Shown here piece after piece: positions 17,712 through 33,655 of a stretch of 64,000 bases of DNA; position 1 is the first letter of the stretch, and each line of letters starts with the position of its first letter. The notes below the pieces were generated by a model. The model saw nothing but the letters and a program-made list of their open reading frames with translations, had not been told where the DNA came from and ran no database searches. The position numbers and the translations under genes are program-made. Source of the DNA: Croceicoccus sp. (GTDB lineage Bacteria; Pseudomonadota; Alphaproteobacteria; Sphingomonadales; Sphingomonadaceae); assembly GCA_002694745.1 (NCBI GenBank), contig NZMY01000002.1, forward strand, positions 1 to 64,000, read 5' to 3'.

Positions 17712-18455
17712 CTAATCATCGCCGACTTGCATGGCGGCATTGAGCTGGCCGAGCGCCTGCGCCTTGAGCTGGTGAACACGCGGAATGCTGACTTCCAGTA
17801 CCTGCGCGATTTCCGACAGGTTGAGTTCCTCGACGAAATAGAGCTGAACCACCAGCTGAAGCCGTTCGGAAAGCGAGCCGATCGCGACCGAAAGACGGTT
17901 CGACTGTTCCGCTGCGACCATTTCGTCATCGGCATCGGGCGCGTCGTCCGCAAAGGCGCTATTGCTGTCGGAATAGCACAGGTCGATGGGGTCGAACCGC
18001 ATAGGTTGGCTGCTGCACCGCATGGCGGAAAGCGTCTGTGCGTCCATGCCCATGGCATCAGCCACTTCGGCCTCGCCGGGTGTCCGTCCGAGCACCGCAG
18101 CCAGCCTTTGCGTCTCGCTCTCGATCTCGCGCCGCTTCCGCGCCGCCGTTCGCGTCGTCGGGGCCTCCCGCCGGATAAGGTCGAACATCGCCCCACGCAC
18201 GCGCGTCTTGGCATAGGCGGCAAAAGCGTGATCGCCTTGCCCCTGGTGCCGCTGGATACATTCGGTGAGCGCCATAAGGCCCGCCTGCACCAGATCCTCC
18301 ACCTCCATGCCCGGCCGGCCGCTTCCATAGGCATGCCAGGCGAGCCGTTTGACCATCGGCATGAACTTCCTGATCAGCTCTGCAGGGGTGCTGCCATAGG
18401 CGACACGCGCCTGTGCGCGGTCAGGATACGAAAAAGCGGAATGATCGTGCTTCAC
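17712..18455 (-). CDS. fliA: Flagellar sigma-28 factor FliA
   Basis: This 247-residue protein has sigma-70-type regions 2, 3 and 4 without region 1: MVKRLAWHAYGSGRPGMEVEDLVQAGLMAL and FAAYAKTRVRGAMFDLIRR (region 2), ESETQRLAAVLGRTPGEAEVADAMG (region 3), and VVQLYFVEELNLSEIAQVLEVSIPRVHQL (region 4). It directs RNA polymerase to late flagellar promoters and is held inactive by FlgM. It is the last gene of the lytic transglycosylase-flhA-fliA operon, with a four-base overlap with flhA. A sigma-54 promoter at 21427-21442 should therefore put FliA under sigma-54 control. Confidence 0.95.
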   Translation of the reverse strand: MKHDHSAFSYPDRAQARVAYGSTPAELIRKFMPMVKRLAWHAYGSGRPGMEVEDLVQAGLMALTECIQRHQGQGDHAFAAYAKTRVRGAMFDLIRREAPTTRTAARKRREIESETQRLAAVLGRTPGEAEVADAMGMDAQTLSAMRCSSQPMRFDPIDLCYSDSNSAFADDAPDADDEMVAAEQSNRLSVAIGSLSERLQLVVQLYFVEELNLSEIAQVLEVSIPRVHQLKAQALGQLNAAMQVGDD

Positions 18456-20560
18456 GCGGCCATCTCCATGGGGGTTTCGGTTTCAGGAATGGCTGCGTCG
18501 GATCCAATGATCTCGATCACCTCGATCGGCTGGCTGGCCGGCAGCTCGCCGATCGAGATGACCACGCATTCGGGGGTCCGCTGACGCACCAGCGAGGCGA
18601 TGGCGCGGCGCGATTGAGGCTGCACCACCAGCGCAGGCGGCAAAGCGCCGGGCCCGCGTTCGTCGACCAGCTGCTTCACCCGCCGCGCGATCGTCGTGGC
18701 AAGGCCGGGTTCGATCACTGGCCAACCGGTCACCGGATCGCGCAGCCCCTGCAGGATGGCGCCTTCCAGCGCGCCGTCCAGCGTGATCACGGGCAGCGAC
18801 CGCGTCGGGGGACAGATCCGCCCTACGATCGTAGCACCAAGATCGGAGCGCACCCTGTCGACAAGCGCTTCGTGTTCCTGCGTGCCCTGTACCGCGCGGG
18901 ACAGGCTGGCGAAGATCGGCAGCGGGTGGCTGATGGCAATGCCATCCTCCAGCAGGCTGCGCAGAACCCGCGTCACCGCGGCAAGCGACAACGGCTGAGG
19001 GTGAAAGGTTTCGACCAGATGTTCCGAGTGCTGCTTCGTCGCTTCCAGCAATTCGCGCACTTCGTCCGGTCCCAGCAGGTCATGCGCCCTTTCGCCGAGG
19101 AGCTGGTTGAGATGCGTCGCTACCACCGTTCCGGGATCGACGACGAGAAACCCGGCGGCCGTAGCATGATCGCGATTGCCTTTATCGATCCACAGCGCGG
19201 GGCAGCCGAAGCTGGGATCGCGGGTCTCCGTGCCCTTCAGGCGATGCGTGGCCGACGCCTCGCCGGTGTCGATGGCGAGCAGGCGGTCGGGCTCTACCGA
19301 CGCGCCGCCCAGTGCCACGCCGCCCAGCATGATCCGATAATCATAAGGCGCCATGTCGAGCGCGTCGCGCAGCCGGAACTGAGGGACGACAAAGCCGAAA
19401 TTGCGCGACAGCTGCTTGCGTACGCCGGTAATACGAGCGATGAGCGGCGATCCCTTTTTCTCGTCGACGAGAGGTACCAGTCCGTAACCCAGTTCGAGGC
19501 TGACCAGCGTCATATCCGACACATCGCCCAGATCGATCCTGTGCGGATCCGCCGGTGCTGCGGCCACCGGTTCGATCGCGGGTTTGTCGGCCCGCTTTTT
19601 CAGACTGCGCGCGAGCCAGAACGCGCCCCCCGCGGCAGGCAGGAAGATCGACTGCGGCATCGCCGGGATCATCCCCACCGCGGCCAGCACCACACCCACC
19701 GGCAGCCAGCTTCGCGGGTCGGCGAACTGGCCGCCAATCTGGCCCGCCAAATCCCGGGCATCCGACACGCGGGTCACGATCACCGCCGCCGCGATCGACA
19801 GCAGCAGTGACGGCACTTGCGCCACCAGCGCGTCACCGATTGCGAGCTGGATGTAGGTCTCTGCCGCCTCGCCGGCGGAGAGCCCGTGGGTGATCATGCC
19901 AAGGCACAGGCCCGCGATGATGTTCACCGCCAGGATCAGCAGCGCCGCGATCGCATCGCCCTTCACGAATTTCGACGCACCGTCCATCGAACCGTAGAAA
20001 TCCGCTTCGGTAGCCACTTCGCGGCGGCGGGCCTTGGCTTCATCGGCGGTCATGATGCCGGCGGCAAGGTCGGCATCGATGGCCATCTGCTTGCCGGGCA
20101 GCGCATCCAGCGTGAAGCGGGCCGAAACCTCGGACACGCGGCCCGCGCCCTTGGTCACGACGACCATGTTGATGATCATCAGGATCAGGAAGACGAAAAT
20201 GCCGACCGCGAAATTGCCGCCGATCAGGAACGCGCCAAACGCCTCGATCACATGGCCTGCCGCCGCACCGCCTTCGTGGCCGTGGACCAGCACGACGCGG
20301 GTGGACGCGACGTTGAGCGCGAGGCGAAGGAGTGTCGCGAATAGCAGGACCGACGGAAAGGACGAGAAATCCAGCGGCTTTTGCGCATTCATCGCCGCCA
20401 TCAAAACGGCGACCGAAAGCGCGATGTTCAGCACGAAGGAGATGTCGAGCAGGATCGCAGGAACCGGAACGATCATCAGCAGCATCAGGGCGATGATGCC
20501 GCCCGGCAGCGCCATGGCGGCCAGGTCCGCTTTGCGCCTTGCGCTTCCTGCGGCGGTCAC
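18452..20560 (-). CDS. flhA: Flagellar type III export apparatus protein FlhA
   Basis: This 702-residue protein has eight predicted membrane helices in the first 320 residues or so and a large cytoplasmic domain after that. The FHIPEP signature region is present as INMVVVTKGAGRVSEVSARF followed by LDALPGKQMAIDADL. FlhA forms the nonameric export ring that receives chaperone-substrate complexes. Its start overlaps the upstream lytic transglycosylase stop by four bases, and its stop overlaps the fliA start by four. Length and layout are normal for the family. Confidence 0.96.
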   Translation of the reverse strand: MTAAGSARRKADLAAMALPGGIIALMLLMIVPVPAILLDISFVLNIALSVAVLMAAMNAQKPLDFSSFPSVLLFATLLRLALNVASTRVVLVHGHEGGAAAGHVIEAFGAFLIGGNFAVGIFVFLILMIINMVVVTKGAGRVSEVSARFTLDALPGKQMAIDADLAAGIMTADEAKARRREVATEADFYGSMDGASKFVKGDAIAALLILAVNIIAGLCLGMITHGLSAGEAAETYIQLAIGDALVAQVPSLLLSIAAAVIVTRVSDARDLAGQIGGQFADPRSWLPVGVVLAAVGMIPAMPQSIFLPAAGGAFWLARSLKKRADKPAIEPVAAAPADPHRIDLGDVSDMTLVSLELGYGLVPLVDEKKGSPLIARITGVRKQLSRNFGFVVPQFRLRDALDMAPYDYRIMLGGVALGGASVEPDRLLAIDTGEASATHRLKGTETRDPSFGCPALWIDKGNRDHATAAGFLVVDPGTVVATHLNQLLGERAHDLLGPDEVRELLEATKQHSEHLVETFHPQPLSLAAVTRVLRSLLEDGIAISHPLPIFASLSRAVQGTQEHEALVDRVRSDLGATIVGRICPPTRSLPVITLDGALEGAILQGLRDPVTGWPVIEPGLATTIARRVKQLVDERGPGALPPALVVQPQSRRAIASLVRQRTPECVVISIGELPASQPIEVIEIIGSDAAIPETETPMEMAA

Positions 20561-21387
20561 AGGCCGAATCTTTCAAAGCGCGCATAGGCAGCCTTCACCG
20601 CTGGCGGCGCCGCCTGCGGGTTGTTGCCGAACATCGACTGCAGGCTGTCGCTCATCGACCTGCCGCCCGCGATTTGCGTGGTGACCGGCATGGCGCGCGC
20701 TGGCGGCGGGGCGGGAATGCCGCGTTCGACTGGCGGCAAGCCTGCGCCGAGCTCGCCCGTCATCGCGCCTTCGACCTTCGCTTCGATGATGGCCATGACT
20801 TCGGCAAGACTGCGTTCGGTGCCCGATCCGGTGCGGAATATGCCGCGATTGGCCGCGCTGGCCGCGGGCAGCAGGGCGGTTGCCGAGGCATCGGGATTGC
20901 GGGCGAGCGCCGAGATGAAGCGCGTCGCGTCGCCGCTGCCGAGGAAATGGCCGAGATAAAGCTCTGCGGCGTTCGGCTGGCGGCCCAGCGTGCGCATCAT
21001 CTCGTCGCGGTTGTCACCCGCGAGTTCGCCCGCCATCAGGGCCGAGGCGGCAGGGTCATAGCGCAGGCCCATGATGTGGCCCGCCAAGCTGCTGTCGGTG
21101 ATCCGCCCGTTCGCGATGGCGGCGCTGGCCCAGCCCAGCCCGTGCTTTGCACCGTGGCGTTCCAGCGTGGACAGCCAGGTCGCATTGGTGAACTGGAACA
21201 GCCCCGCCGCGCTGGAGGTAGCGGCCTTTGCTTGCGGGTTCAGCGAGGATTCGATCTTGGCCTGCGCCAAGAGGAAATTGAAATCCTCACCGGTGCGTTC
21301 GGCGGCGCGGGCTATGTCGGCGCGTATCGAGGCACCGGTGCCGGCGGGTGCTGGCACATGCGCGGCTGAAACGGGCGGTCCACTCAT
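20557..21387 (-). CDS. Flagellar lytic transglycosylase (SLT domain)
   Basis: This protein of about 276 residues has an SLT/lysozyme-like fold: LLAQAKIESSLNPQA with the catalytic glutamate, then SSAAGLFQFTNATWL. It should open the peptidoglycan for the flagellar rod. The FlgJ protein of this cluster (29388) lacks a muramidase domain, so this protein likely supplies it. There is no classical signal peptide, so export through the flagellar apparatus is possible. A TTG at 21426 would add 13 residues but lies upstream of the predicted sigma-54 transcription start. ATG 21387, with AGGA eight to ten bases before it, is preferred. Confidence 0.85.
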   Translation of the reverse strand: MSGPPVSAAHVPAPAGTGASIRADIARAAERTGEDFNFLLAQAKIESSLNPQAKAATSSAAGLFQFTNATWLSTLERHGAKHGLGWASAAIANGRITDSSLAGHIMGLRYDPAASALMAGELAGDNRDEMMRTLGRQPNAAELYLGHFLGSGDATRFISALARNPDASATALLPAASAANRGIFRTGSGTERSLAEVMAIIEAKVEGAMTGELGAGLPPVERGIPAPPPARAMPVTTQIAGGRSMSDSLQSMFGNNPQAAPPAVKAAYARFERFGL

Positions 21388-21426
21388 CGGGGTCGATCCT
21401 GTCGGTTGTCGTGACAGGATTGACAA

Positions 21427-21460: not shown

Positions 21461-21787
21461 TCAGGCCCGCATGTCGGCATAGCGTTTCGCGCCGTAAAGG
21501 CGCGGCGATCCACTCAGCATGTCGATCCGCGCGGCGATATTGGCGGCGACCAGATTGCGCATCTGGCGGTTCACCTCGTTCGCGTCGCGGGCGGCGCGGC
21601 TCATCGCACGGCATTCCTCGTCGAACGATGCGAGGTCTGCTTCGTCGAGACGGTCGCACAGGCCCAGCTTGGTGCGGGTCGCTTCGGTGATGGCGTCGAG
21701 GTCGAGACCGGCAATCGCCTGCCGTTCGGTTTCCAGCACGGCAAGCATCTGCCGCAGCGCGTCCTTCAGCCTTGCATTGACGGTCAT
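21461..21787 (-). CDS. flgN: FlgN-like flagellar export chaperone
   Basis: This 108-residue helical protein sits immediately after flgM with a four-base overlap, the usual flgM-flgN arrangement. Two long helices are predicted (LKDALRQMLAVLETERQAIAGLDLDAITEATRTK and a second from about residue 60). FlgN chaperones the hook-filament junction proteins FlgK and FlgL. Sequence identity in this family is low, so the call leans on gene position, size and helical pattern. The frame extends to 22105, but MTVNARLKD at 21787 is the natural start. Confidence 0.75.
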   Translation of the reverse strand: MTVNARLKDALRQMLAVLETERQAIAGLDLDAITEATRTKLGLCDRLDEADLASFDEECRAMSRAARDANEVNRQMRNLVAANIAARIDMLSGSPRLYGAKRYADMRA

Positions 21788-22071
21788 CGTTCGGTCCCTG
21801 TCATGCCGCCCGTGATCCCGATTGCCATCATGGCGTCGGCGATCTTGCGCGGTTCGATGGAATAGGTGCCATCCGCCAATGCCTTGCGTATTTCGGCCAC
21901 GCGGTCCTTGTCGACCGGCGCTTCGCCGACATCGAGCGTTTCGGACATGACGATGCCCGATGTTACCTGCTTTCGCGGTTCGGTCGGGGCGCCTGCCGGT
22001 GCGCGCACGGACGAAAGGCGCGTTTCGCCCGGAATGTGGGGACGGATCGGTCCGATATCGTACGATGCCAT
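21784..22071 (-). CDS. flgM: Anti-sigma-28 factor FlgM
   Basis: This 95-residue protein has a disordered N-terminal half and the conserved C-terminal FliA-binding segment: VDKDRVAEIRKALADGTYSIEPRKIADAMM, which closely follows the FlgM pattern (VRxIRxAIxxGxYxVDxxxIAxxLL). It binds FliA until the hook is complete and is then exported. It overlaps flgN by four bases. A sigma-28-like element lies 32-60 bases upstream, which would give FliA-dependent feedback. Confidence 0.9.
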   Translation of the reverse strand: MASYDIGPIRPHIPGETRLSSVRAPAGAPTEPRKQVTSGIVMSETLDVGEAPVDKDRVAEIRKALADGTYSIEPRKIADAMMAIGITGGMTGTER

Positions 22072-22165: not shown

Positions 22166-22681
22166 CTATCCTGTCGTCAGAGTGACGACACCGGGGCCGG
22201 TGACGCGGGCGCGCATGATGTCGGCGCGGCGATTGCCGGTCATGGCGGGGCGCACCTTGATCCAGTCGCCGACCGCGCCGCTTTCCAGCGCCTCGCCGGG
22301 GCGGGAGATCGAGAAGCCCTGCCCCGCGACCGAGATCGACACCGCATCGCCGCGCTGCACCGCGTCTTGCCGCGCCGCCGCTGCCTGAGCCGCCGGGCGG
22401 GCATGGACGGGCATGTAGAGCCGCCATCCGCCCGCGTCGGGACACTGCAACATGACCGTATCGCGTTGCTCGCTGCGCCAGGCTATGTCGACGGGCACGT
22501 GGCAGGGGCGCAGTTTCAGCCTGCGGTCGAGCGGCTGCATTGCGCCGCCTTCCTCGCCGATCGGCGCGCCGGTGAACTCGGCGATCCGGCGGTCGAGCGC
22601 GGCGAGATCCTGCACATCCTGCGCCGCGGCCGAACCGGGAGCGGACAGGAGCAGGGAGATAAGGGCGTATGCGGAGATCAT
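22166..22681 (-). CDS. flgA: Flagellar P-ring assembly chaperone FlgA
   Basis: FlgA is a periplasmic chaperone needed for FlgI P-ring formation. From ATG 22681 the product is 171 residues with a signal peptide (MISAYALISLLLSAPGSAAAQ). The C-terminal SAF-like domain includes RPGEALESGAVGDWIKVRP and ADIMRARVTGPGVVTL. Start choice: GAAAGG lies eight bases before ATG 22681, whereas in-frame starts at 22735 and 22768 have no such site and spoil the signal peptide. It is a single gene with its own upstream region, unlike clusters where flgA is joined to flgI. Confidence 0.88.
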   Translation of the reverse strand: MISAYALISLLLSAPGSAAAQDVQDLAALDRRIAEFTGAPIGEEGGAMQPLDRRLKLRPCHVPVDIAWRSEQRDTVMLQCPDAGGWRLYMPVHARPAAQAAAARQDAVQRGDAVSISVAGQGFSISRPGEALESGAVGDWIKVRPAMTGNRRADIMRARVTGPGVVTLTTG

Positions 22682-22772
22682 GACAATGGCCTTTCGGGTT
22701 TTGCCATGCTCCTGCAAAGCCCGTGCCAGATGCATCGAACCCGCGCCGAAAAGTGACAAAGGTGACACGTCC

Positions 22773-22939: not shown

Positions 22940-23335
22940 CTAGCCATCATAGGCGAGCACGGCGCTCGGCTGGCCGCCGTCGGGTTGCAGGACGATGCGC
23001 GGGACTGCGCCCGCCGCGACCGCCTGTGCGGCCAGTGCGGCGGCGGCGGACATGGCCGTTTCGGGGTGGGCCGGGTCATAGCCCATGGTGATCTGTAGTC
23101 TCGCGCCCTTGCCCAGCCCTTGCGCGGCGATCCAGTCGGCGATGGGCGGAGCATCGGGCGATGCGCGGTAGATGGCCTGGGGGATAGGGTCGAGATTGGA
23201 CGCGTCGGAGGACTTGCCTCCACCCGCATAGGACGCGGTGACGATGAACAGGATCAGCGCCAGATCGGCGAGCATGATTGCCCAGCCCGCGCCGCCCGCC
23301 TTGGCGTGACCGATCATAGGCAGAGCGGCAGGCAT
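22940..23335 (-). CDS. Small single-helix MotB/ExbD-like protein
   Basis: The 131-residue product has one membrane helix near the N-terminus (about residues 17-36) with an aspartate at its start, D24 in MLADLALILFIVTAS. This is where MotB and ExbD carry the proton-binding aspartate. The rest is periplasmic and only loosely follows the OmpA/MotB pattern (ITMGYDP then an Ala-rich helix); the TD...NxxLSxxRA peptidoglycan signature is missing. Its ATG overlaps the stop of the MotA/TolQ-like gene by one base (TGATG), so the two are surely co-translated. A proton-channel subunit is inferred; function is unproven. Confidence 0.65.
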   Translation of the reverse strand: MPAALPMIGHAKAGGAGWAIMLADLALILFIVTASYAGGGKSSDASNLDPIPQAIYRASPDAPPIADWIAAQGLGKGARLQITMGYDPAHPETAMSAAAALAAQAVAAGAVPRIVLQPDGGQPSAVLAYDG

Positions 23336-23988
23336 CAGGCCGCCTCTGCCGCGTCAGGCAGCGGCAGGGGGTGCACCACCGCGCCTTCCAGCTGCCATGC
23401 GGTCCAGCGCATCAGCTCGTCGCGGGCCTGTTCCTCGGCCTCGCCCGAGCGGCGGATCGCCTCGGCCAGCGGGGTCAGCACCAGCTGCGCCAGCAGCACG
23501 CCGTAGAGCGTGGTCAGCACCGCCCCGGCCAGCGCGGTGTTCATCCCCTGCCCCGGATCGGCGGGCAATTGCGACAGCGCCAGCAAGGTGCCTGCTAGCC
23601 CGAAGGCAGGCGCGTTCTCCGCCGCCATCGCCAGCGTTGCATGGGCGCGGCGGTTGTCGGCCATGCGCAAGGCGCGAAAGCGGGCCATCTGCTTGTGGAA
23701 CAGCGCGATATTGCGCGCATCGACCATCGCCCTGGCTGCCTTCTGGCTGGCACGGTCACGGAAATAATAGGGTTCGGTGCGCACCAGCCCGTCGACGCGC
23801 ACATCCTGCACCATGCGCGCGAGATCGCTGCGCAGCGCGTCCTCGTCGAATTCGCGCGTCGCCAGATGGCGCACGGTGGCGATCGTCGCGCGGCATTCGC
23901 CCAGCCCTGCACGCAGCAAGGTCGCCAGCGCCGTGCCGCCAATGACGACGGCGGCGGACAGGGGATCGACAAGCGCGCTGAAATCCAT
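23335..23988 (-). CDS. MotA/TolQ/ExbB-family proton channel-like protein
   Basis: The product of about 217 residues carries the MotA pattern in shortened form: the first helix SALVDPLSAAVVIGGTALATLL, a cytoplasmic region, then ENAPAFGLAGTLLALSQL and LAGAVLTTLYGVLLAQLVLTPLAEAI, which match MotA helices three and four including the proline in AP. A canonical motA lies at 31966, so this is a second, divergent channel subunit. ATG 23988 gives a family-like start; the frame runs to 24189 with an unlikely basic extension. It is divergent from flgB across a 263-base regulatory region. Confidence 0.75.
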   Translation of the reverse strand: MDFSALVDPLSAAVVIGGTALATLLRAGLGECRATIATVRHLATREFDEDALRSDLARMVQDVRVDGLVRTEPYYFRDRASQKAARAMVDARNIALFHKQMARFRALRMADNRRAHATLAMAAENAPAFGLAGTLLALSQLPADPGQGMNTALAGAVLTTLYGVLLAQLVLTPLAEAIRRSGEAEEQARDELMRWTAWQLEGAVVHPLPLPDAAEAA

Positions 23989-24081: not shown

Positions 24082-24130
24082 CGGCAATGCCAGCGGCAAG
24101 ATGTTGCCGCGCGTTTGCCGCCGCTTGCCG
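24082..24130. promoter_or_regulatory. Phased CGGCAA/TTGCCG hexamers: likely enhancer for the FlbD-like activator
   Basis: CGGCAA occurs at 24082 and 24094 and its complement TTGCCG at 24104, 24115 and 24125. Spacings of 12, 10, 11 and 10 bases put all five on one DNA face. The second and third form a perfect palindrome CGGCAA-GATG-TTGCCG. The block is centred about 100 bases upstream of the expected start of the flgB sigma-54 promoter, the normal distance for a bacterial enhancer. Confidence 0.7.
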
Positions 24131-24183: not shown

Positions 24184-24199
24184 TGGCACGGCTCTTGCT
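24184..24199 (+). promoter_or_regulatory. Sigma-54 promoter of the flgB operon
   Basis: TGGCACG-GCTC-TTGCT matches the sigma-54 consensus at every conserved position, with GG (24185-24186) and GC (24197-24198) ten bases apart. Transcription should begin near 24210, leaving a leader of about 40 bases with AGGAAAGG ahead of the flgB ATG. Confidence 0.9.
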
Positions 24200-24251: not shown

Positions 24252-24599
24252 ATGCCCGGCGATTTATTCGGAATTCATGGGGCCGCGCTGCAATTGCGTT
24301 CGCAGCGCATGGGCGTGCTGGCGTCGAACATCGCCAATGCCGGAACCCCCGGATACAAGGCGCGCGACATCGACGTCACCGCCGCGCTGGCCCGCATGCA
24401 GGGCGGCGGCAGCGTCGACCAGGCCGCAAACGGCGCGACCCTGTTTCGCGTGCCGGTGATCGCCTCTCTCGACGGCAATACGGTCGAGCTGCAGAACGAG
24501 CAGATCGCCTTTTCCGAAAACGCCGTGGGCTATGCCGCCACGCTCGACCTGATCCGCGGACGGGTCGAGACCGTCACCCGCGCCATCCGGGGAGAGTGA
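24252..24599 (+). CDS. flgB: Flagellar basal-body rod protein FlgB
   Basis: This 115-residue proximal rod protein has the N-terminal rod motif as QLRSQRMGVLASNIANAGTPGYKARD. The C-terminal helix (FSENAVGYAATLDLIRGRVETVTRAI) is typical of rod proteins. It is the first gene of the long plus-strand flg operon behind a sigma-54 promoter. The ATG at 24252 follows AGGAAAGG. Its stop lies two bases before flgC. Confidence 0.95.
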   Translation: MPGDLFGIHGAALQLRSQRMGVLASNIANAGTPGYKARDIDVTAALARMQGGGSVDQAANGATLFRVPVIASLDGNTVELQNEQIAFSENAVGYAATLDLIRGRVETVTRAIRGE

Positions 24600-24601
24600 G
24601 C

Positions 24602-25009
24602 ATGGCCGACCGTCCCTTGAATGCCTTCTCCCTCGCCCAGCGCGGCATGTCGGCGCAGATGGTGCGCATGAACGCGGCGGCATCGAACCTTGCCAATGCC
24701 GGTTCGGTCGCCGCCAGCGAGGGCGAGGCCTATCGCCCCGTGCGCGCCGTGTTCGCCGAGGATCTCGACCGCGCGAGCGGCCAGTCGACCGTGCGCGTCC
24801 GCTCGGTCGTGCGCGAGAATACTGCACCCACCCGCCGCTACGAACCCGGCCACCCGCTGGCCGACGCCAATGGCGAGGTCTGGGTGTCGCCCGTCGATGA
24901 GAATGCCGAGATGGTCGAGATGCTGGAAGCGTCGCGCCAGTACCAAAACATCGTCGAGGCCCTTTCCACCACCAAGCAGCTGATGCTCGACACGATGAGG
25001 CTCAAATGA
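24602..25009 (+). CDS. flgC: Flagellar basal-body rod protein FlgC
   Basis: This 135-residue proximal rod protein shows the SNLANAGSVAASEGEAYRP motif near the N-terminus. It ends with the conserved VDENAEMVEMLEASRQYQNIVEALSTTKQLM helix. Its ATG follows the flgB stop after two bases, and its stop overlaps flgD by four bases, so translation is coupled. The frame is open further upstream, but only the ATG at 24602 gives a FlgC-like N-terminus. Confidence 0.95.
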   Translation: MADRPLNAFSLAQRGMSAQMVRMNAAASNLANAGSVAASEGEAYRPVRAVFAEDLDRASGQSTVRVRSVVRENTAPTRRYEPGHPLADANGEVWVSPVDENAEMVEMLEASRQYQNIVEALSTTKQLMLDTMRLK

Positions 25010-25275
25010 CGATTTCCTCCGTAAATTCCGCCAGCGCGCCTGCGCCCGCGTCTTCGGGCGGCGGTTTCGCCTCGCTCGACCAGTCCGATTTCCTGAAGCT
25101 GATGACGGTGCAGATGCAGCACCAGGACCCGTTCGACCCGGTCGATAACAAGGAGATGCTGGCCCAAATGGCGCAGTTCTCGCAGCTGTCCGCCAGTTCC
25201 GAGACGACCAGCGTGCTCGAACAGATTTCCGCAAAACTTGATGCCCTCGCGGCGCTGGCCGCCGAAAAGGAGTAA
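25006..25275 (+). CDS. flgD: Flagellar hook-capping scaffold FlgD, short form
   Basis: The 89-residue product covers only the conserved N-terminal FlgD segment: LDQSDFLKLMTVQMQHQDPFDPVDNKEMLAQMAQFSQLSA is the family signature that directs export and hook-tip binding. Most FlgD proteins exceed 200 residues, with C-terminal Tudor and immunoglobulin-like domains that are absent here. The gene has its own stop six bases before flgE, so this is a real short protein, not a frameshift within visible sequence. It caps the growing hook; how it works without the C-terminal domains is unclear. Confidence 0.9.
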   Translation: MTISSVNSASAPAPASSGGGFASLDQSDFLKLMTVQMQHQDPFDPVDNKEMLAQMAQFSQLSASSETTSVLEQISAKLDALAALAAEKE

Positions 25276-31965: not shown

Positions 31966-32829
31966 ATGTTCGCAGCCATCGGTATCGTCATCCTGCTTGT
32001 TATGGTGTTCGGCGGGTTCGCCCTCACCGGCGGTGCGCTGGGGCCTGTCATGCATGCCGTCCCGCATGAAATGCTGATCATCGGCGGCGCAGCGCTCGGC
32101 GCGGTCGTCGCGGGCAATTCGATGCACGAACTGAAGGCCATCGGCGGCGCATTCGCCAAGGTGTTCAAGGGACCGAAGCATTCGAAACAGGATCACATCG
32201 ACGTAATCGTGCTGAGCAGCCGGTTGATGAAGATGCTGCGCAACGAAGGCCCCGTCGCGGTCGAGAGCCATGTGCAGGACCCAAAGAACTCCGCGATTTT
32301 CAATGAATTCCCCCGGCTTCTTGCCAACAAGCCTTTGATCGACCTGCTGTGTGATGCGATCAGCCTGCAGGTGGTGTCGTCGGGCTCCCTAGAACCGCAT
32401 GCGGTGGAAGAGGTCATGGACAATGCCATGAAGACCCATTTCCACGGGCTGCACGAGCCGCAGCATGCCTTGCAAAACCTGGCCGACGCATTGCCCGCAC
32501 TGGGCATCGTGGCCGCCGTTCTAGGCGTGGTGAAGACGATGGGGTCCATCGACGAACCGCCATCGGTGCTGGGAGGCATGATCGGGTCGGCGCTGGTCGG
32601 CACGTTTCTGGGTGTGCTGCTGGCCTATGGCATCATCGGCCCGCTGGCCGGGCGGCTGAAGCAGATCAACGAGCAGGACGAGCAGATCTTCCACGCCGTC
32701 AAGCAGGTCATCATCGCCAGCCTGCACGGATGGCCGCAGCCGCTGGTGGTCGAAAGCGCGCGGTCGGGGCTTGGCCACGGGTTCCGGCCGGGCATGAACG
32801 AGATGCTCGACGCGATGCGGGGCAAGTAG
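31966..32829 (+). CDS. motA: Flagellar stator protein MotA
   Basis: This 287-residue protein has four membrane helices and the MotA cytoplasmic loop: ANSMHELKAIGGAFAKVF region, then SSRLMKMLRNEGPVAVESHVQDP. The channel helices follow (LGIVAAVLGVVKTMG with the conserved proline-containing ALPALGIV turn, and GSALVGTFLGVLLAYGIIGPLAGRL). With MotB it conducts ions and turns the FliG rotor. It is coupled closely to motB, with one base between stop and start. Confidence 0.95.
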   Translation: MFAAIGIVILLVMVFGGFALTGGALGPVMHAVPHEMLIIGGAALGAVVAGNSMHELKAIGGAFAKVFKGPKHSKQDHIDVIVLSSRLMKMLRNEGPVAVESHVQDPKNSAIFNEFPRLLANKPLIDLLCDAISLQVVSSGSLEPHAVEEVMDNAMKTHFHGLHEPQHALQNLADALPALGIVAAVLGVVKTMGSIDEPPSVLGGMIGSALVGTFLGVLLAYGIIGPLAGRLKQINEQDEQIFHAVKQVIIASLHGWPQPLVVESARSGLGHGFRPGMNEMLDAMRGK

Positions 32830-32830
32830 G

Positions 32831-33655
32831 ATGGCAAGCGCCCCGGTCGATCCGAATTTCGACGGCAGGAACAGCCGGCCCGTCATCGTCAAGAAGGTCA
32901 CTGTCGTCGCTGGCGGCCATCATGGCGGCGCGTGGAAAGTGGCCTATGCCGATTTCGTGACCGCGATGATGGCGTTTTTCCTGCTGCTGTGGCTGCTGAA
33001 CGCCACGACCGAGGAGCAGAAGCAGGGTCTCGCCGACTATTTCTCCCCTACGCTCGTCCAGATGCGCGAGAACAGCGCGGGCAGCAACGGGCTGCTGGGC
33101 GGCGCGTCGTTTTCCGACATGAACAGCGTGTCGAACGCCAGGTCCGAGCGCGGGCAGATGTCGATCTCGCCGCCGCTGGAATCGGGCAAGGCCGGACAGT
33201 CCCAAGAGACCCGCCGCGCGGTCGAGCGCATGCTGCAATCGACCCCTCGCCTGCGCCGCCTCGCCAAGCAGGTCAGGCTGGTGCAGGTGACTGAGGGGAT
33301 CCGCATGGATCTTGTCGACGATGCCGATTTTGCGATGTTCCACCTTGGCACCACGGTGCTGACGGCGGACGCGCGCGAATTGCTGAACGCCATTGCCGAG
33401 GCGGCGGCGGCGCAGAACACGCAGATGACATTGCGCGGGCATACCGATGCCCTGCCCTGGCGCGACGGCGTGCCGGGCAACAACTGGTCGCTGTCGGCCG
33501 GTCGCGCCGAGGCGACAAGGCTGGAACTGCTGCGCGGCGGGATCGCCAAATCGCGCTTTGCCCGGATCGAGGGCGTTGCCGACCGCGAGCCGCTGATCGC
33601 GAACGACCCTAACGATCCGCGCAATCGCCGGATCTCGATCACGGTGCTCGACTGA
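32831..33655 (+). CDS. motB: Flagellar stator protein MotB
   Basis: This 274-residue protein has one membrane helix, AWKVAYADFVTAMMAFFLLLW, containing D41, the ion-binding aspartate of proton-type MotB. The C-terminal OmpA-like peptidoglycan-binding domain shows TLRGHTDALPW and NNWSLSAGRAEATRLELLRGG. It anchors the stator to the wall. Its stop overlaps the ATG of the following PilZ gene by one base (TGATG), tying a likely c-di-GMP sensor to stator expression. Confidence 0.96.
   Translation: MASAPVDPNFDGRNSRPVIVKKVTVVAGGHHGGAWKVAYADFVTAMMAFFLLLWLLNATTEEQKQGLADYFSPTLVQMRENSAGSNGLLGGASFSDMNSVSNARSERGQMSISPPLESGKAGQSQETRRAVERMLQSTPRLRRLAKQVRLVQVTEGIRMDLVDDADFAMFHLGTTVLTADARELLNAIAEAAAAQNTQMTLRGHTDALPWRDGVPGNNWSLSAGRAEATRLELLRGGIAKSRFARIEGVADREPLIANDPNDPRNRRISITVLD

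Follow-up and report, generated by a model that had tools for sequence, protein, structure and literature searches.

The gene pair and its surroundings in Croceicoccus

The window, meaning the whole analysed stretch of 64,000 nucleotides, belongs to a Croceicoccus sp. genome of 4.02 Mb in 59 contigs and carries a flagellar gene cluster. Two small genes lie in this cluster beside the flgB promoter, and the proteins of 217 (subunit A) and 131 (subunit B) residues that the original prediction had placed there, joined by a TGATG junction, were both recovered (Table 1). The junction is an overlap of stop and start codons by one base on the minus strand. D24 of B, read at the time as an intramembrane aspartate, does lie within the single predicted helix of this protein. 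The pair stands at the head of a minus-strand block, flgA-flgM-flgN-SLT-flhA-fliA, and the order and common strand of these genes suggest that a single transcript may run from the pair through fliA. The ordinary motA-motB genes reported elsewhere in the window are genuine, as judged from Pfam and NCBIfam matches. The sole relative of the window's A in the genome-contig database is on a Croceicoccus MAG contig (87%). The FlgD of the window (25006–25275) has just 89 residues, and the N-terminal FlgD domain alone was matched.

Table 1. Positions of the pair, neighbouring flagellar genes and intergenic sites in the window.
Feature	Position	Strand	Match or remark
Subunit A, PomA-like, 217 aa	23335..23988	-	three predicted membrane helices, without TM1 of MotA/PomA
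Subunit B, shortened MotB-like, 131 aa	22940..23335	-	helix 16–37 with D24; degenerate OmpA-like domain ~52–131
flgA, P-ring chaperone	22166..22768	-	next downstream of the pair; ChapFlgA, 48.9 bits
flgM, anti-sigma-28	21784..22071	-	43.7 bits
flgN-like	21461..21808	-	25.8 bits, below the Pfam cut-off of 30.5
SLT-domain transglycosylase-like protein	20557..21426	-	22.9 bits (cut-off 21.3)
flhA	18452..20560	-	FHIPEP, 746.8 bits
fliA-like sigma factor	17712..18455	-	sigma-70 regions 2, 3, 4; last gene of the block considered
flgB	24252..24599	+	divergent from the pair, on its upstream side
Ordinary MotA	31966..32829	+	TIGR03818 MotA1, 326.9 bits
Ordinary MotB	32831..33655	+	MotB_plug 67.6 bits, OmpA 43.1 bits
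Sigma-54-type site TGGCAC-N5-TTGC	24184..24199	+	~50 bases before flgB
Near-palindrome CGGCAA-N4-TTGCC	24094..24108	.	between flgB and the pair

Subunit A

The A protein of the window scores above the Pfam MotA_ExbB cut-off (37.1 vs 22.9 bits) and has no match to Pfam MotA_N; its best NCBIfam match is PomA, at 57 bits, far under the cut-off of 341. A profile built from 40 A sequences matches PomA with 180 bits over PomA residues 26–229, starting at residue 24–26, and the ten chains that it matches at E ≤0.001 are all MotA/PomA, with no ExbB or TolQ chain there. The predicted structure (mean pLDDT 92.7) has helices at residues 9–27, 94–139 and 149–200, giving three membrane crossings, and helix 94–139 (TM3) is continuous. 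All 23 Foldseek matches of this model at E ≤0.001 are MotA/PomA. The motifs of the pore are kept: P127, G163 and P173 are found in all 85 A proteins, T134 is found in 84, and position 124 is occupied by E in 45 and by D in 39 (E or D in 84/85), so that, with the proline present in 85/85, the Glu-Pro motif of TM3 is retained.

The first membrane helix of MotA/PomA is missing. PomA-type proteins of the phylum sample (n=22) have 19–26 residues ahead of the start of the profile. The start nearest the aligned part was taken for each A gene, a choice that favours a short N-terminus, and the absence of TM1 was therefore checked with alternative starts 25–80 residues upstream; no 19-mer above 1.6 was found there in any of the 85 loci. 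A misread start hiding TM1 was rejected on the basis of this lack of a hydrophobic 19-mer, and the two longest N-termini chosen (L074, L122) contained no obvious helix on reading.

In a published classification, flagellar stators, with a four-helix A subunit and an anchored B subunit, are divided from generic transporters, with a compact B subunit (PMC12505986). In the same work, flagellar ion transporters (FIT stators) have a square four-helix A subunit whose cytoplasmic domain is enlarged and includes four or more torque-interface helices, a continuous TM3 with a Glu-Pro motif and, in B, a long plug and linker followed by an OmpA-homologous periplasmic domain; PomAB is given as a TGI4-type flagellar stator, and generic B subunits as being without OmpA homology (PMC12505986). 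The square four-helix membrane domain is absent from A, which has three crossings in its model. The cytoplasmic part of A was read from this model as helices 29–44, 49–70 and 79–91 with the start of 94–139, outside the classification method of the paper (PMC12505986).

Subunit B

Compared on its own with Pfam and NCBIfam, the B protein of the window matched nothing at E ≤1. Pfam OmpA matches 24 of 40 B members at E ≤0.1, the window's own B not being among them, and a B profile matches PomB (42.6 bits) as well as MotB. The B model, which is of moderate quality (pLDDT 82.6, pTM 0.57), has the order beta-alpha-beta-alpha-beta-beta in its OmpA-like domain. The pair had been called minimal, but its small partner does have a periplasmic domain, of a degenerate OmpA-like kind. 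The intramembrane aspartate is invariant (84/84).

The median distance from this aspartate to strand beta-1 of the OmpA-like domain is 46; the window's B has 32, and 81 of the 84 proteins do not exceed 56, the other three (L115, L117, L120) having distances of 86–102, which border on the ordinary range. The distance in ordinary B proteins is at least 100 in 29 other rows (28 different proteins), these being the rows with both anchor positions aligned. The long plug and linker of FIT stators are thus absent from B, the distance being about halved. A short linker need not block anchoring, because MotB of Salmonella can do without some of its linker. The motif GHxD, which we take to be the wall-binding motif of the OmpA-like domain, or its variant GYTD occurs in one of the 84 pair B proteins, compared with 22 of the 28 frames from ordinary B; that one is not the B of the window, which had been correctly described as lacking a peptidoglycan-binding signature.

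ExbB has three membrane helices, and the pair is like ExbB/ExbD and TolQ/TolR in that its A has this number and its B is compact; a role driven by ions off the wall would be a likeness by analogy. The pair is unlike these systems in that ExbB fold matches to A begin only at E 0.011, B has OmpA homology and the genes have a flagellar context. An ExbB/ExbD transport pair away from flagella, which the original prediction had named as an outcome that would speak against it, was consequently rejected, given that the profile and fold matches of A are to MotA/PomA and that B is homologous to OmpA. The SiiA/SiiB proteins of Salmonella are not flagellar; the comparison with them was limited to the fold of a single domain, for which unrelated folds were found at similar Z. 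A defence system was also considered and discarded, with no PADLOC match at E ≤0.01 for A or B.

Ancestry and rotor-contact positions

A tree of 59 A-type rows, including 25 of the 85 pair proteins, was rooted on two MotA1 rows, with ExbB and TolQ left out. The 25 sampled pair proteins form one clade (98/98) on the PomA-type side, far from MotA1 (branch of 1.94), and the subclade of the window has a long branch (2.08). Taking the sequence comparisons and the predicted structures together, the pair descends, in reduced form, from a flagellar stator of the PomA/PomB type. Like PomA/PomB, it combines an A subunit matching the PomA profile with a B subunit that has an aspartate-bearing helix and an OmpA-like domain; unlike PomA/PomB, it is without TM1, has about half the distance between aspartate and OmpA-like domain, rarely has the wall-binding motif and does not conserve the rotor arginine. 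MotA1 and MotB of the window share their broad families and their flagellar cluster with the pair, but are of another lineage and full length, with the MotA_N, MotB_plug and OmpA matches that are missing from the window's pair. No description of such a pair was found among the top-ranked matches in the open literature, most subscription papers lying outside the scope of the search, and to this extent the suggestion of an undescribed system stands; the part of it that implied an unrelated minimal system does not, since this is a reduced pair of the PomAB lineage.

The PomA R88 and E96 positions, which we take to be rotor-contact sites, have changed to different degrees. The R88 position holds R or K in only 28 of the 85 pair A proteins, against R in 22/22 PomA proteins of the phylum sample and R/K in 27/27 alphaproteobacterial PomA proteins (49/49 together). 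The E96 position holds D or E in 65/85, with E in 22/22 of the phylum-sample PomA proteins and D/E in 10/27 of the alphaproteobacterial ones; the frequency of an acid here, above that in alphaproteobacterial PomA, makes rotor contact possible. The pair might then be an auxiliary stator, as had been proposed, docking at the C-ring and adding or tuning torque while held by a basal-body protein (FliL, the P-ring or another) and not by the wall. This would agree with the PomA ancestry and the retained cytoplasmic helices, with the acid at the E96 position and with the setting in a flagellar cluster, and a non-peptidoglycan anchor is raised in the accessible part of PMC7990780. A torque-generating role of this kind is nevertheless unlikely, and less likely than the original prediction held, because the rotor-contact arginine is not conserved; the rarity of GHxD/GYTD, the short linker of B and the lack of TM1 in A also speak against it, as does the position of the pair among assembly genes, whereas motA1 follows flgL.

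Gene order and distribution within the family

Eighty-eight loci were examined (86, together with L006 and the window), and 85 were retained once three without flgB had been left out. A is present in all 85 loci with a recognisable flgB and B in 84; the two genes overlap in 79 of these 84, by four bases (ATGA or GTGA) in 74 and by one base (TGATG, the form seen in the window) in five. The flgA gene is opposite in strand to flgB in 83/85 loci, and A lies between flgB and flgA, in line with flgA, in 80/85 (plain tblastn). Of 20 long loci with the pair, 19 have SLT, flhA and fliA after flgA, as do seven of the 14 loci fetched from the 47 genomes with FlgI but no pair. Because the block stays together in these seven pair-less loci, the pair can be regarded as a cassette forming the optional head of the flgA-to-fliA block, and the position before flgA may be a mere cassette site. 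The flgB and flgA matches are 135 to 411 bases apart in eight of the 14 pair-less loci, the other six giving no such match pair. In one genome (G019, locus L114) A is degenerate and B is missing, and in another labelled as belonging to the same genus (G105, locus L133) flgB and flgA are adjacent and the pair is absent; these two look as if the pair were being lost.

The sample comprised 199 genomes of one family, which we take to be Sphingomonadaceae as broadly defined in GTDB; in the NCBI taxonomy, Qipengyuania belongs to Erythrobacteraceae. The query P0001 matched 91 of them at E ≤0.001, and 87 were counted as having the pair, the four left out being G007, G052 and G056 (locus without flgB) and G005 (E 4e-4, two internal stops). 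The locus was read in 84 of the 87, which do not include G083, G152 and G156 (contig ends). The original prediction of a second pair, resembling a stator and linked to the flagellar cluster, is borne out: FlgI is present in 133/199 genomes and in 86 of the 87 with the pair, whereas the pair occurs in only one of the 66 genomes without FlgI (Fisher p 2e-20, with kinship ignored). That single genome (G143) is a fragmented assembly, and its locus still has flgB, flgC, flgE and flgA. The pair is common yet dispensable for having a flagellar cluster, because 47 of the 133 FlgI genomes are without it.

Ordinary MotA (E ≤1e-20) was found in 126/199 genomes and in 85 of the 87 with the pair, G143 and G036 being the exceptions. 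Such regular company would suit a regulator of the ordinary stator, with A or B joining MotA/MotB or occupying rotor sites as a chaperone, a brake or a spare part. There is a precedent in FlgX of Campylobacter, a stator chaperone according to the accessible part of PMC6686046, which is likewise an extra flagellar gene bearing on stators and is likened to the pair by description only. Ordinary MotA also occurs, however, in 39 of the 47 FlgI genomes without the pair, so a regulator of this kind is not generally needed, and the invariant aspartate of B suggests that the pair has a channel of its own; together with the distance between A and MotA1 in the tree, this leaves regulation of the ordinary stator a rather improbable function.

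The exception G036 (L058, L171, L172; same genus) has the pair and flgB to flgI, with a short flgB match. The pair was considered as the sole stator of this genome, which has FlgI, no MotA1 at E ≤1e-20 and a weak MotB match. This was rejected in favour of a remnant flagellar cluster, because tblastn gave no match to flgK, flgL, motA1 or motB1 in the 28 kb of sequence read at the locus and the flgB match is short.

Selection and the intergenic region

Comparison with L006 gave dN/dS values of 0.18 for A and 0.21 for B (118 codons, dS 1.2), alongside 0.08 for flgE, 0.18 for flgB, 0.31 for flgA and 0.55 for flgM. The values relative to L037 were 0.22 for A and 0.38 for B, with dS above 1, and B changes fast there. 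On these codon comparisons, selection on the pair is purifying. Chance open reading frames were discarded as an explanation on the grounds of recurrence (A in 85/85, B in 84/85), the overlap of the genes and the dN/dS values relative to L006. The pair could also be what is left of an earlier PomAB stator, decaying and no longer functional, a reading to which the degenerate A in L114, the adjacency of flgB and flgA in eight of 14 pair-less loci and the long branch of the window's subclade would lend themselves. It is very unlikely in view of the low dN/dS of both genes, the unchanging aspartate of B, the gene overlap in 79/84 loci and the presence of the pair in 87/199 genomes.

Sigma-54-type sites were called with what we take to be the sigma-54 consensus. 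The form TGGCAC-N5-TTGC faces flgB in 76/85 loci, and its strict form faces the pair in 1/85, so the pair seems not to share the promoter type of flgB. The near-palindrome CGGCAA-N4-TTGCC is present in 70 of the 85 intergenic regions between flgB and the pair (17 with at least two copies) and was found in 0 of 50 mononucleotide-shuffle rounds; a possible role for it is that of an activator site at the sigma-54-type promoter of flgB.

Proposed function

The aspartate of B and the pore motifs of A suggest that the ion channel core is conserved in the pair, conduction being putative. An ion-driven core that is conserved, with mechanical attachments that are relaxed, is consistent with a stator lineage that has taken on a different task. 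The pair may thus be an ion-powered unit derived from PomAB that is without load-bearing attachments and acts in energising or signalling during flagellar building, a reading that we favour while regarding it as far from secure. Sequences and models show that the pair has kept its membrane core (the aspartate of B, the TM3/TM4 motifs of A and the unbroken TM3), while the parts lost or relaxed are TM1 in A, the greater part of B's linker, the motif for wall binding and the conserved arginine of the rotor contact. Five A and two B subunits would form a putative ion-driven rotary unit, free of the cell wall and exerting no high load on FliG. The small OmpA-like heads of B would lie near the inner membrane, where they could pass motion or a conformational signal to some part of the basal body, in a manner comparable to the energising of other proteins by ExbBD or TolQR.

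The most likely stage of action of the proposed unit would be the building or checking of the rod, the P-ring or export, because the pair heads the flgA-flgM-flgN-SLT-flhA-fliA block. This gene block points weakly to assembly, since it also exists without the pair. A more specific form of the proposal, in which a stator stripped of its wall and rotor attachments has become an ion-powered engine for basal-body building, for example for the passage of the rod and P-ring through the wall with FlgA and the SLT enzyme, is put forward as a tentative and rather unlikely suggestion. The pair has the ancestry of flagellar stators and much of the build of generic transporters, and it is spread over many genomes of a single family. 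Provided that it is functional, it would offer a natural means of telling the stator parts needed for torque from those needed for the use of ions, and it may point to a way in which energy enters flagellar assembly.

Occurrence beyond the family and on plasmids

No clear case of the pair outside the family was seen among the matches listed for three broader samples, one of the order (147 genomes, searched with the B profile), one of the class (385, with the A profile) and one of the phylum (249, also with the A profile), matches being judged by scores and frame lengths and gene context being read in the loci of 18 genomes and in short flanks only. The three samples overlap one another and contain members of the family. 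Two frames of pair-like size were encountered in these broader samples, of 216 aa in G783 and of 218 aa, at a contig end, in G780. Other alphaproteobacteria (L173, L177, L178, L180, L183, L188, L189, L190) and one genome of the family (L093) have a PomA-type gene of full length with no motB match next to it; the neighbours of these lone genes are, judging by size and order, presumably fliF-fliG-fliH-fliN and flbD-flhA.

Among 72,556 plasmid records, one had a match, a plasmid of Qipengyuania citrea E4 annotated in the same order with a MotA/TolQ/ExbB family protein, a hypothetical protein, FlgA and FlgM. This 270-kb plasmid (L236, NZ_CP098495.1) carries a large flagellar cluster that includes the pair.
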